Shown here piece after piece: positions 6,764 to 32,145 of a DNA stretch of 40,669 nucleotides (its first letter is position 1; each line of letters opens with the position of its first letter). A program made the translations under genes and the position numbers. The notes under the pieces were generated by a model. That model made no database searches. It saw only the letters and a list, made by a program, of their open reading frames with translations, and was not told the DNA's origin. Origin of the DNA: Actinomycetota bacterium (GTDB lineage Bacteria; Actinomycetota; Actinomycetes; Nanopelagicales; Nanopelagicaceae); NCBI GenBank assembly GCA_010031635.1, contig RGZI01000006.1:1-40669 (forward strand), read 5' to 3'.

Positions 6764-8275
6764 GTGAAAAGAATTGCAATCGCCGGCATTTTGACCGAAT
6801 GTAATGATTTCACTAGTGCTTTAATTACAGAAGCTGATTTTGAACGGGTTGAGCTACTCCGTGGTGATCAGATGTTCGAGCGAACTGATGGCGTAGTTGG
6901 TGGAACGTTGACGGAGCTTGCGAAACATGCTGAATTTGTTCCAGTGCCTTTGCTCTTTACTTCAACCATTCCTGGTGGAGCCTTAACAGATCAATGCTAT
7001 AAAACTTTTCATGATGAAATTATCGAACGATTAAAAGCAGCGGGATCTGTTGACGGCGTATTGCTCTTACTTCATGGAGCCGCAGTTTCGGTCAGTGTTG
7101 CTGATATTGAAGGAGAATTGCTGGAGTCAGCTCGAAAAGTTGTTGGCTCAGAAATCCCGATTATGGTGACTCTCGATTTACACGCTCACATCACTGAAAA
7201 AATGGTTACGCTATCAACAGCTTTGTTTGGCTGGGAAACCTATCCACATATGGACTCATTCACAACAGGTGCTCGGGCCGCAGATTTAATGGTGCGCACG
7301 CTTAATAAAGAGGTTAATCCAGTTCAAGTAATGGCTCGAGTTCCAGTTTTAACAAGTGCGATTAATGCTTCCACTGAAAGGCCTGGACCTTTTTTCGACC
7401 TCATGAAAAAAGCAAAAAAGTGGGAACATGAAGGTAAATGTTTATCAAGCAGTGTTTTCTTGGTACATCCATATGTTGATCGCCCAGAAATGGGAAGTGG
7501 CGCACTTTTTGTTACTGATAATGATCCACAAAGTGCGGCCAAAATGGCCCGCGAGATTGCGCAAGAGTATTGGGATCGTCGTCAAGAGTTTGAACCCGAA
7601 GTCTGGAAAGCTGAAGCAGCTATTCATGATGCAATTAAAAACCAGACTGGAAGATCTGTATTAACTGAAGTCGCAGATACTTGCGGTGGAGGCTCTGCTG
7701 GTGATTGTGTCGCAGTCCTTCGCGCATTACTTGATATTGATGTAAATACAAAAGCGATCTATCCAGTGGTTTCACCAAATGCTGCTGCAATTGCCATTAA
7801 AGCTGGCGTCGGCTCAGAAGTTAATTTACAAGTTGGCGCTGAGGTCGATAAAAAGTGGGGAGCCCCAGTAAGTATTAAAGGGACGGTTCTAAATGTAAGT
7901 GATGGACATTTTACTTATCAAGGTGGAGTCTGGGATGGTGCCAGTGGGCGTATGGGTGCTACTGCGGTAGTGAGAGTTGGTGGAATCGATATTGTTATAG
8001 CCACTTTCCCAACTTATGAATGGCGAGATGAGCAGTACCTTTCAATGGGCTTGAATCCATCCAATTACCAATTAATAGTTGTCAAGAATCCAATGAATTA
8101 CTTTATGACTTATAGCCCAATAGCCAATAACTTCTATGTAATCGACTCACCTGGACCAACTCCGGCGACCTGCAAAGCGCTAACTTATGTGCAAAGAGAA
8201 AGACCTTTTTTCCCATTTGATAGCGACATCCCTGGAGATACCGTAAAACTGTATGGAGCGGTCAACCAAAATTGA
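6764..8275 (+). CDS. M81 family (MlrC-like) metallopeptidase
   Basis: This belongs to the M81 family, named for microcystinase MlrC, which hydrolyses the linear tetrapeptide from microcystin; most family members have unknown substrates. Likely metal ligands are visible: Glu in GILTECNDF (usually HETNTF), His in LLLHGAAVS, Asp and His in TLDLHAHIT, and His in ETYPHMDS. The C-terminal MlrC domain starts near ADTCGGGSAGD. It has 503 residues and a GTG start with an AAGGAG ribosome binding site. It is downstream of era and its stop overlaps the glpK start. A second M81 gene lies at 28326-29807. The function could be an amidase or peptidase acting on a small molecule. Confidence 0.85.
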   Translation: MKRIAIAGILTECNDFTSALITEADFERVELLRGDQMFERTDGVVGGTLTELAKHAEFVPVPLLFTSTIPGGALTDQCYKTFHDEIIERLKAAGSVDGVLLLLHGAAVSVSVADIEGELLESARKVVGSEIPIMVTLDLHAHITEKMVTLSTALFGWETYPHMDSFTTGARAADLMVRTLNKEVNPVQVMARVPVLTSAINASTERPGPFFDLMKKAKKWEHEGKCLSSSVFLVHPYVDRPEMGSGALFVTDNDPQSAAKMAREIAQEYWDRRQEFEPEVWKAEAAIHDAIKNQTGRSVLTEVADTCGGGSAGDCVAVLRALLDIDVNTKAIYPVVSPNAAAIAIKAGVGSEVNLQVGAEVDKKWGAPVSIKGTVLNVSDGHFTYQGGVWDGASGRMGATAVVRVGGIDIVIATFPTYEWRDEQYLSMGLNPSNYQLIVVKNPMNYFMTYSPIANNFYVIDSPGPTPATCKALTYVQRERPFFPFDSDIPGDTVKLYGAVNQN

Positions 8276-21420: not shown

Positions 21421-21999
21421 CTACCTAATTTGAGTATTGCTACCATCAATAAAAATCTGACAATTTTCTTTGGTCTGATCCTTTAGGAAATGTGCTCTTT
21501 CGCGCTCCTGCCACTTCAACATATATGGTAATAACTGGTCACCATCTCGGTTTAGGACTCTAGCTAGCCCTATTTGTGGACCAACTTCAATCCAGATGGT
21601 CAGATCTGCGCTCTGGCGAATTATCTCTTGGGCCGCACCAACGCCCTCCAAAATCAATAGCTCGATATCTCTTACTTCAACCGCCAGACCATATTCACCG
21701 GTTGACCAATTAAATTTTTGATAGTGAGCACTTTGGTGCTTACCAAACGGATCGATAATCCATTCTTCCAAATGCTGAGTCAGCGTGGCCGTAAGGGCAT
21801 CCTCCCAACCGTTATAAAGATCATCCATATGAATTGTGGTAACCGAGTTCAACTTATTGGAGAGCTGATTTGCTAAAGAAGTTTTCCCAGAACCAGCGGG
21901 ACCGTCGATTGCGATCAACATTGGCCCAGCTTTATTTGCAGATATTTCTGAGATCGCAGAAACAATTGGTTCAAATTCCACATCTGGAAAATTAATCAA
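21421..21999 (-). CDS. Uridine-kinase-like P-loop kinase in a TPP-riboswitch operon
   Basis: A 192-residue P-loop kinase related to uridine kinase/phosphoribulokinase-type proteins. Walker A is GPAGSGKT (residues 33-40), MDDLYNGW (58-65) resembles the substrate-side DD/D-F-Y motif, ILEGVGAA forms the third strand, and LKWQERERAHF resembles the lid region. Its TTG start lies inside the last codons of the PnuT-type transporter gene (8-base overlap), so expression follows the TPP riboswitch. PnuC-type carriers are facilitators whose substrate is trapped by phosphorylation, so a thiamine kinase role is an attractive inference. Ordinary nucleoside kinase activity remains possible. Confidence 0.75.
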   Translation of the reverse strand: MINFPDVEFEPIVSAISEISANKAGPMLIAIDGPAGSGKTSLANQLSNKLNSVTTIHMDDLYNGWEDALTATLTQHLEEWIIDPFGKHQSAHYQKFNWSTGEYGLAVEVRDIELLILEGVGAAQEIIRQSADLTIWIEVGPQIGLARVLNRDGDQLLPYMLKWQERERAHFLKDQTKENCQIFIDGSNTQIR

Positions 22000-22588
22000 C
22001 TTTCAGATCTTCCTTAAATTGTTTGTGCATTGCATACCAACGGATCCAACCAAGAATTGCCATCGCAGTAAACACTGCATAAACCAACGAGGTGAAGTAA
22101 TAGCCTCCGCGGGCGTATTGGACTGTTAGGACGACATCAACTGCAAACCACAAGGCCCAACTTTCCCACTTTTGACGTACCATCAAAATTTGCGCAGCAC
22201 CACTTCCAAGTAAGCCAAAAGTGTCACTCCAAATTGCAACAGCGCCGATAGATTTTAAATAAGGAGCAAAACCGATCCAGGTCGCACTAAAGATTCCTAG
22301 TGAGATCCACTTACTTCGCAGTGACATTTTGGATGGTTGTGCACCTTTTCTACCCCAACCAAACCAGCCCCAAATTCCGAATCCAATAAAAATAAATTGA
22401 GTTGCAAAACTTGCGAAATACTTAGCTTGATAAAACCAGATTGCATACAAAATTGAGCTAGCAATCCACCACGGCCAAGTTATCTGTTTGCCAGTCGTTC
22501 CAAGATAGACGCCAATTAATGAAACTATCGCAGCCGTGAATTCAAGAAGTGATACTTCATATCCCCAAGCAGTGAATAAAGTAAACAT
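21992..22588 (-). CDS. pnuT: PnuT-type thiamine transporter (PnuC family)
   Basis: A PnuC-family facilitator of about seven helices. Typical features are the Trp-rich N-terminal half (ITWPWWIASSILYAIWFYQAKYFA) and the C-terminal ALWFAVDVVLTVQYARGGYYFTSLVYAVFTAMAILGWIRW. PnuC carries nicotinamide riboside, but a TPP riboswitch directly upstream assigns this member to thiamine (PnuT). It has 198 residues, with ATG at 22588 and AAGGAGG four bases upstream. That ribosome binding site lies within the riboswitch 3' strand, so TPP binding probably blocks translation. It is co-translated with the downstream kinase. Confidence 0.87.
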   Translation of the reverse strand: MFTLFTAWGYEVSLLEFTAAIVSLIGVYLGTTGKQITWPWWIASSILYAIWFYQAKYFASFATQFIFIGFGIWGWFGWGRKGAQPSKMSLRSKWISLGIFSATWIGFAPYLKSIGAVAIWSDTFGLLGSGAAQILMVRQKWESWALWFAVDVVLTVQYARGGYYFTSLVYAVFTAMAILGWIRWYAMHKQFKEDLKVD

Positions 22589-22592
22589 TTAT

Positions 22593-22671
22593 CCTCCTTC
22601 CAATCCGCATTACCGGACTGGTTCGACGGTCGGTGAGATTTTCACCCTCTCAGCCTTGGCGGCTCCCGTGT
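22593..22671 (-). promoter_or_regulatory. TPP (THI element) riboswitch
   Basis: Read on the minus strand, the segment has the conserved GGGAGCC...GGCTGAGAGG core and a perfect P3 hairpin (GGTGA-AAATC-TCACC). The GTCGAACC segment follows, then the P4/P5 arm CCAGTCCG-GTAATG-CGGATTGG. The terminal GGAAGGAGG contains the Shine-Dalgarno sequence of pnuT. A TAAGGT -10 (22684-22679) would start the transcript at about 22671, directly at the aptamer. No terminator hairpin fits between aptamer and gene, so control is most likely translational: TPP binding closes the P1 stem over the ribosome binding site. Confidence 0.9.
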
Positions 22672-22678
22672 GTTCTAA

Positions 22679-22684
22679 ACCTTA
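22679..22684 (-). promoter_or_regulatory. Candidate -10 of the pnuT/kinase operon (TAAGGT)
   Basis: TAAGGT preceded by TGA (extended -10-like) is seven bases upstream of the first aptamer base. It lies within the 136-base divergent region shared with crtYc, so the two promoters must overlap. No clear -10 for crtYc was found in the same stretch; TATATT at 22740-22745 lies downstream of the preferred crtYc start. Confidence 0.4.
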
Positions 22685-27687: not shown

Positions 27688-28329
27688 ATGAACAATAGAG
27701 AATACTTAGAGCGTTGGTCTTCTCTTCATGGTTATCAAGAGGGAGAAGGGCCCACCGGAATTGCCCGCGGATATTTGCTAATTAACTTTTATCTTGCAAA
27801 ACCATTCGTGCTACTTCGGATTCCTGCAGATGTAGTTTCATTATTAGGGCTCTTACTTGCCTGCTTCGCTCTACTTGAAAGAAATACATTATGGGCTCCA
27901 ATTTTCATTTTACTTTCAGTGATCAGCGATGGATTAGATGGGGCTGTTGCAATTGCAAAGGATCGCGCTTCAAAGTGGGGCGCACTTTGGGATTCAACTT
28001 TAGATCGCATAGTAGAAGCATTGTGGGTGTTGACCGCCTACTTTGCGGGAGTGCCAATTTGGGTATTGCTGATTGCCTGGTGTGCAGCAGCAACTCAAGA
28101 GTATGCCAGAGCCAGGCTTTCATCTCTTGTGAACAATGAGATTGGTGTTGTCAGTATTTGTGAAAGACCGGTGCGGGCGATTTTTATTGCTATCGCGTTA
28201 GCACTTGGAATATATAATTTGGATTTGCAAAACATCAGTATTTTACTTTGGATGGTATTTCAATTAGCAGCGTTAGCTCAGGTAATTAAGTATTCATATC
28301 AAAGATTACAAAATTCGAGTGCACAATGA
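27688..28329 (+). CDS. CDP-alcohol phosphatidyltransferase family protein with altered signature
   Basis: A membrane enzyme that would transfer a phosphatidyl group from CDP-diacylglycerol to an alcohol. The catalytic signature is D-G-L-D-G-A-V-A-I, then eight residues, G-ALW-D-STL-D. All four Asp and both Gly are present, but the Arg of the usual D-G-x-x-A-R element is Ile. About six helices are seen across 213 residues. The acceptor alcohol (glycerol phosphate, inositol phosphate or another) cannot be decided. It starts three bases after metF and overlaps the M81 gene as ATGA. Confidence 0.85.
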   Translation: MNNREYLERWSSLHGYQEGEGPTGIARGYLLINFYLAKPFVLLRIPADVVSLLGLLLACFALLERNTLWAPIFILLSVISDGLDGAVAIAKDRASKWGALWDSTLDRIVEALWVLTAYFAGVPIWVLLIAWCAAATQEYARARLSSLVNNEIGVVSICERPVRAIFIAIALALGIYNLDLQNISILLWMVFQLAALAQVIKYSYQRLQNSSAQ

Positions 28330-29764
28330 GTATTAAAATCGCGGTTTTGAGTTTGATCCAAGAAACCAATACTTTCTCGGCAAAAAATGCCAGTTATGAA
28401 GATTTCAAAATGCAAGGAATCTGGTATGGCCAAGAGGCAGATATAAAATCTAAAGGCTCTAATACCGAGATTGCGGGTGCTATTTCATACCTTAGATCTC
28501 AATCATGCGAGGTAATCCCAATCATGCGCGCTTGGGGAATGTCCGGGGGAGTCTTGGGTGATGATGATTTCAGGGCGCTATTACAACCAGCTTTTGAAAT
28601 GCTGGTTTCACTTCCAGCCCTGGATGGGGTTATTTTAAATTTACATGGCGCATTGATTACTCAAACTCATGATTACGCAGACGCAGAGATCGTGGCCAGA
28701 GTGCGCGCTTTAATTGGAGAAGAGATTCCAATCGCGGTAACTCATGACTTACATGCAAATGTAACAAGTGAGATTTTGGAACATGCTGACATATTAATTG
28801 GATACCAAACATATCCGCATATAGATCAAGCAGATACCGGCGCAAAAGCTGCCAAACTATTGTTGGATTTACTCGCAGGGGGCGCTCCGATTCAAAGTGC
28901 AATATCGAAAATTCCATTATTAATTCCAGCCGAAGTCCAAATTATTAAATCTGAGCCGATGTTACAGGTACGAAATTTGGCTGATTCTTATTTATCTGAT
29001 CGCGTGTTGGATATCTCCTTATTCCCAGTACAGCCTTGGATAGATGTACCAAAGTTAGGTTTTGCAGTAACTGTTACCGGCACGCTGGCGAAGCCGGAGC
29101 TATTGAAAATTGCCACAGAGATCAGCGATAAAATCTGGGAGATTAAAGAGCAGTTTGAGGTGGATTTGGTAAAACCAATTGAGGCTATAGAAAAGATTAG
29201 ACGAGGCAATCAATTAGGACGCAGTAAATTTTCAATTTTATTGCAATCAAGTGATGCGCCACCAGGCGGGGCTGCCGGTGATAATGCCGTTTTAATTGGA
29301 GAACTAATAAAGGCTGGGCCAGATTTCAATGTTTACACAAACGTTGTCGATGTGAACGCAGTTGCGGATGCTAATGATGTGGGCGTTGGCGGTGAAGTGA
29401 ATCTATCGATTGGCGCCTCCCTTGATCCAAGGTGGTCCAGTCAAGTGTTGATATCGGGAAAAGTTTTAAATTTGGGAACGACGCCAATATTGCTCAAGGG
29501 AATTGTAATGAATGGACAAGAGGTCTCAATTGGTAATTGGGCAACAATAGATTGTGGACGTGGTTTGATAATTTTAGTTAGTACCGAGCCCACCCCCTCA
29601 TTTGATCCAGCTACATATGAAAGCGTTGGACTGGCGGTTGGAAAGGCAGATGCGGTACATGTTCGATCATGCGCGCTTTTCAGAGCCGGATATGTTGACT
29701 TATTCGATGAAGTTTTGATTCTAGATATTCCTGGACCTACATCACCGGCATTGGCAAAGATTGA

Positions 29765-32145
<2,381 letters not shown>

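Follow-up and report, generated by a model that had tools for sequence, protein, structure and literature searches.

The window, by which we mean the whole 40,669-nucleotide stretch of DNA that was analyzed, carries a compact minus-strand operon in which a TPP-type aptamer is followed by pnuT and a gene encoding a P-loop kinase (Table 1). From sequence comparisons, we propose that this locus is likely a thiamine-salvage operon and that the kinase is a TMP-forming thiamine kinase, not homologous to known ones, that acts together with ThiL. In the proposed pathway, the riboswitch would control translation of PnuT and of the kinase, and PnuT would serve as a facilitator that lets thiamine into the cell. 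The uridine-kinase-like enzyme would then convert thiamine to TMP and trap it inside, and ThiL, encoded elsewhere, would convert TMP to TPP. Carriers of the PnuC type work as facilitators, and phosphorylation traps what they let in (PMC7221760). The enzyme still missing for imported thiamine, one that phosphorylates it for retention and use, is probably this kinase. As a source of TMP, it would stand in for ThiE in a lineage that lost thiamine biosynthesis.

Table 1. Features of the predicted thiamine-salvage operon, in window coordinates
Feature	Position	Strand	Basis or remark
TPP-type riboswitch aptamer, divergent, closed P4/P5 arm	22592..22676	-	RF00059, 37.1 bits at 22580-22679
CUGAGA element, retained	22648..22653	-	CTGAGAGG in 54/54 pnuT-linked and 15/15 other aptamers
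P4/P5 hairpin CCAGUCCG-GUAAUG-CGGAUUGG, 8 contiguous pairs	22600..22621	-	Canonical pyrophosphate-site internal loop missing
Shine-Dalgarno GGAGG of pnuT	22593..22597	-	Directly 3' of P4 strand, read from sequence
pnuT, PnuC-family carrier, predicted thiamine facilitator	21992..22588	-	PF04973, aptamer context, relatives
P-loop kinase, candidate thiamine kinase (thiamine to TMP)	21421..21999	-	Start codon uncertain
Walker A motif GPAGSGKT of kinase	21880..21903	-	Alignment A1
DDLYNGW motif of kinase	21805..21825	-	Alignment of 15 relatives

The 8-base overlap between pnuT and the kinase gene, stated in the original prediction, is reproduced by the two reading frames if the kinase starts at its TTG codon; this start is uncertain, as conservation begins only near residue 25. 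A scan for promoters and terminators returned nothing exceeding chance. Elsewhere in the window, the plus strand encodes two MlrC-like proteins (6764-8275 and 28326-29807) with M81 metallopeptidase (PF07364) and MlrC_C (PF07171) domains. The pair lies within one 40-kb stretch of a host that is probably a lake bacterium; the family takes its name from microcystin breakdown.

The best curated match of the kinase was NF005115/PRK06547, a family named "hypothetical protein," at 112 bits and thus below the cut-off of 173; judged by its sequence, the enzyme is a divergent relative of this family. Among characterized families, only PF00485, a broad superfamily model of Pfam, was matched above its cut-off (28.3 bits versus 22), and the curated Udk model TIGR00235 gave 39.6 bits, under its cut-off of 220. 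A domain search matched neither PF01636 (APH fold) nor PF04263 (thiamine pyrophosphokinase domain), which agrees with the earlier statement that this P-loop kinase is not an obvious ThiN, ThiK, or thiamine pyrophosphokinase. Its uridine-kinase-like character was likewise borne out by the presence of both GPAGSGKT and DDLYNGW and by a fold resembling uridine-cytidine kinases. The AlphaFold2 model was confident (pLDDT 92); the solved structures closest to it were phosphoribulokinases and uridine-cytidine kinases, in agreement with the profile search, with a TMq of about 0.65-0.7 to uridine/cytidine kinase. D59, Y62, G64, and W65 of the DDLYNGW motif were invariant in all 15 aligned relatives.

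These closest structures would suit an alternative in which the enzyme acts on nucleosides or other small molecules and just happens to lie in the operon, as would the wider PRK06547 homologues of other actinobacteria, which are found in non-thiamine contexts such as near argG and tyrS. We consider this alternative unlikely, and the linkage and distribution of the gene, given below, argue against it. The window kinase and the PRK06547/NF005115 family have GxxGxGKT, DDLYxGW, W98, EGVG, and RDG in common, whereas the pnuT-linked kinases, including that of a genome from another family (G627), share V148 and M160 at positions mostly occupied by G and W, respectively, in the rest of the family. Within the window's family, the pnuT-linked kinases formed a clade in a midpoint-rooted tree (support 0.957), and this clade joined the G627 kinase and one environmental sequence (L066) with a support of 0.977. 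We also considered whether the PRK06547 family as a whole is a general actinobacterial thiamine kinase; this was unsupported, as homologues outside the lineage, G627 excepted, had no PnuT or TPP elements nearby. In the large-genome genus g18 (G223, G307, G328, G361, G371, G382, G393, and G446), a distant kinase homologue and a PnuC-family gene share a contig at a constant spacing of about 9 kb.

The riboswitch-pnuT-kinase order was well conserved within the window's order (Nanopelagicales-like actinobacteria, presumably the acI group). The kinase was present in 191 of 201 genomes, and PnuT stood directly upstream of it in 97 of the 100 kinase loci inspected. The aptamer preceded 97 of 98 pnuT genes, and the 98th locus ends at a contig end. 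Among genomes with a kinase position among the matches listed, 67 of 72 TPP elements preceded the kinase by 515-648 nt, in the same orientation and with pnuT in between. PnuT itself belongs to the PnuC family (PF04973, 121.6 bits versus a gathering score of 27.3), and its thiamine specificity is predicted from the TPP-type aptamer together with the auxotrophy of the lineage (PMC5301498). Three kinases had no PnuT (L027, L028, and L191), and the TPP element of these genomes was located elsewhere; those elements that we read precede a YkoE-type protein (PF09819) or an ABC-type, thiB-like importer consisting of a PF13343 solute-binding protein and a permease. Since the kinase is kept where PnuT is lost and the TPP element sits at another importer, it tracks thiamine import and not PnuT alone. 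Both this persistence under a different TPP-controlled importer and the linkage to pnuT and aptamer, which recurs in a second family, speak against a nucleoside or other small-molecule kinase that shares the operon by coincidence.

Several individual genomes deserve mention. G181 was the only one of the 201 with two kinase matches (C36:2257-2787 and C7:39966-40499), which may reflect a true duplication or, at 5% contamination, a mixture of strains. In G130 (genus g14), the kinase match (L241) was unusually weak (E 8e-14), a canonical TPP element precedes an ABC-type importer, and ThiL was matched only below its cut-off, possibly a case of further rewiring. A record titled Bifidobacterium breve MAG (L067, contig CALPKA020000091.1) has the TPP-type aptamer, PnuT, and kinase that characterize the window's order, and this contig looks wrongly binned or labelled.

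Across the order, a search for a recognized thiamine pyrophosphokinase came back empty, with PF04263 found in 0 of 201 genomes, and control genomes did match. ThiL, the TMP kinase, exceeded its cut-off in 28 of the 30 genomes examined, the window's genome included (227 bits). Because ThiL needs TMP and has been retained, the kinase is better read as a TMP-forming thiamine kinase than as a pyrophosphokinase. At 85% completeness and 6% contamination, the window's genome gives absences little weight by themselves. The complete genome G011 (1.24 Mb) has one member of the kinase family; a motif scan of it found one APH-fold protein, nearest to methylthioribose kinase (78 bits versus a cut-off of 275), which could in principle be a ThiK-like enzyme.

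The original prediction had left room for either a thiamine-trapping kinase or a new pyrophosphokinase, which would form TPP directly from thiamine. The first part gained support from the operon linkage, the lack of PF04263, and the complementarity with ThiE; the second we regard as quite improbable. What favors a pyrophosphokinase, besides the missing PF04263 enzyme, is the Bacteroides arrangement in which tnr3, termed a thiamine pyrophosphorylase, comes after pnuT (PMC5613172). Nonetheless, where ThiE is lacking, a one-step enzyme would leave ThiL, kept in those 28 of 30 genomes, without substrate or purpose. The fold is also that of the uridine kinase/phosphoribulokinase type, and enzymes of this type transfer a single phosphate.

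ThiE, which usually supplies TMP, matched strongly in 7 of the 39 genomes examined. Two of these (G007 and G044) have ThiE together with the kinase and ThiC; the other five, four from one genus (G035, G060, G111, and G161) and one from another (G135), have ThiE and no kinase and are precisely the kinase-less genomes among the 39. The remaining 32 genomes, out of 34 kinase-bearing ones examined, have the kinase without a strong ThiE match. Thus, each of the 39 genomes could obtain TMP through ThiE, the kinase, or both. This complementarity is suggestive, as the five kinase-less genomes represent two genera, that is, one or two losses and not 39 independent cases. In the kinase-less genomes, the TPP elements that we read precede a cytX-like permease gene (PF02133) or a thiO-like gene beside thiE. 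The kinase is therefore missing exactly where, among the genomes examined, thiamine precursors are imported or made and ThiE is present, a pattern that further argues against an enzyme for nucleosides or other small molecules. The same distribution bears on a reading in which PnuT imports a thiamine precursor and the kinase phosphorylates HMP or the thiazole alcohol. Some actinobacterial TPP elements do precede cytX-thiD, an HMP route; however, HMP-P and thiazole-P are usable only via ThiE, which is missing from nearly all kinase genomes, and we judge this reading to be highly unlikely. A thiamine kinase that forms TMP remains our preferred assignment.

Related operons were sought in other families. 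When 326 genomes of the class were scanned with a covariance model built from the pnuT aptamers, leaders of pnuT in the window's family scored 75-100 bits, G627 scored 67.8 bits, and nothing elsewhere exceeded 55 bits. G627, from another family, shows the same order of aptamer, PnuT (210 amino acids), and kinase (182 amino acids; NF005115, 125 bits). In G563 (L284:764-1956, minus strand), a NadR-like P-loop kinase (PF13521) unrelated to the window kinase comes after a TPP element and PnuT; this appears to be an independent thiamine-trapping pair of facilitator and kinase. A phylum-wide PnuT search for more operons yielded only distant PnuC-type matches (61-88 bits versus 307), none of them usable.

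The aptamer had been described as a well-formed TPP aptamer. Its TPP-type identity was upheld; the description as well formed was not, given its divergence, its closed P4/P5 arm, and the lack of a supported P1. The RF00059 score was below the gathering score of 54.3, so that the element is missed at gathering; the match had an E value of 4e-6 for 211 bases and, as the only TPP match in the genome, 7e-6. Model R1, which was built from relatives including the window's own sequence, scored it at 77.8 bits. We considered whether the weak Rfam score means that the aptamer is not real, and its conservation upstream of 97 of 98 pnuT genes together with covariation ruled this out. In a 29-sequence alignment, the structure beat all 500 shuffles and all slid versions. 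Across 96 relatives, the best P1 helix did not exceed in length that obtained with shuffled partners (4.27 versus 4.38), and no anti-Shine-Dalgarno helix was better than with shuffled partners. The Shine-Dalgarno sequence directly after P4 would fit translational control.

We parsed 96 pnuT-linked and 15 other aptamers in the window's order, identifying individual P4/P5 loop bases by reference to the thiM structure. In all 96 pnuT aptamers, the P4/P5 internal loop is replaced by base pairs (position 5 pairable in 98% and position 6 in 90%), with the arm shortened by two base pairs; the other 15 keep the canonical internal loop, mostly U.C and A.G and 0% pairable. The closing pairs of the 96 exchange among G-U, G-C, and A-U and among A-U, C-G, and G-C. 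CUGAGA, the pyrimidine (HMP)-recognition site in the established TPP aptamer structure, and the UAAUG loop are fully kept in the pnuT-linked aptamers. In known TPP aptamers, the P4/5 arm senses pyrophosphate and the P2/3 arm senses pyrimidine (PMC4775224).

The changed aptamer is a finding separate from the kinase assignment, and a changed ligand is possible. It could be that the pnuT-linked aptamer is a natural TPP-riboswitch variant blind to pyrophosphate that senses thiamine or TMP, although we regard this as doubtful. If true, the facilitator and trapping kinase would be controlled by their own substrate or product and not by TPP. A survey for closed arms covered 38 further aptamers, most of them canonical. 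Closed arms occurred in other families before cytX-thiD of the HMP route (L275, L276, and L280) and thiO of the thiazole route (L285), and within one family, canonical (L279) and closed (L275) forms both precede cytX-like genes. The idea that the closed arm is specific to pnuT was thus not upheld, and these occurrences led us to lower the claim of a changed ligand. The altered arm makes the ligand specificity of TPP-like riboswitches directly testable.

The acI actinobacteria are described as the most abundant bacteria of most freshwater lakes and as thiamine auxotrophs without nearly all salvage enzymes (PMC5301498). The same paper already predicted PnuT under a THI element in four acI genomes; its accessible portion does not mention the kinase. 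A literature search that covered few subscription journals found no report of the closed-arm aptamer and none that assigns thiamine kinase activity to this enzyme. To the question of how acI bacteria convert imported thiamine to TPP, the locus offers a specific, assayable answer. If the assignment is true, TMP formation would gain a third route, non-homologous to ThiE and ThiK, and the assignment would give a function to a clade within a family still named "hypothetical protein." Genome surveys could then assess thiamine salvage correctly in a lineage that currently counts as salvage-deficient.

Among known systems, ThiK (YcfN) of Escherichia coli carries out the reaction predicted here, in which thiamine and ATP yield TMP for ThiL. 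However, ThiK has an APH fold, whereas the window kinase is a P-loop, uridine-kinase-like protein unrelated to it in fold and sequence. The Bacteroides pnuT-tnr3 operon likewise combines a TPP riboswitch, the PnuT facilitator, and a thiamine-phosphorylating enzyme (PMC5613172), but tnr3 is annotated as TPP making, while the window kinase is most likely TMP making, with ThiL finishing the pathway. PnuC and NadR pair a facilitator with a substrate-trapping P-loop kinase in the same way (PMC7221760), for nicotinamide riboside, a different vitamin, and with a different kinase family. The aptamer resembles the RF00059 TPP riboswitch in its CUGAGA element, UAAUG loop, P2, P3, and overall layout and differs from it in the closed P4/P5 loop, the arm shortened by two base pairs, and the unsupported P1. 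The HMP-PP riboswitch (thiS motif) is a further riboswitch of the thiamine pathway, and its ligand is not TPP (PMC6478431); its aptamer sits inside a terminator, whereas the window element is a derivative of the TPP aptamer with the three-way layout.
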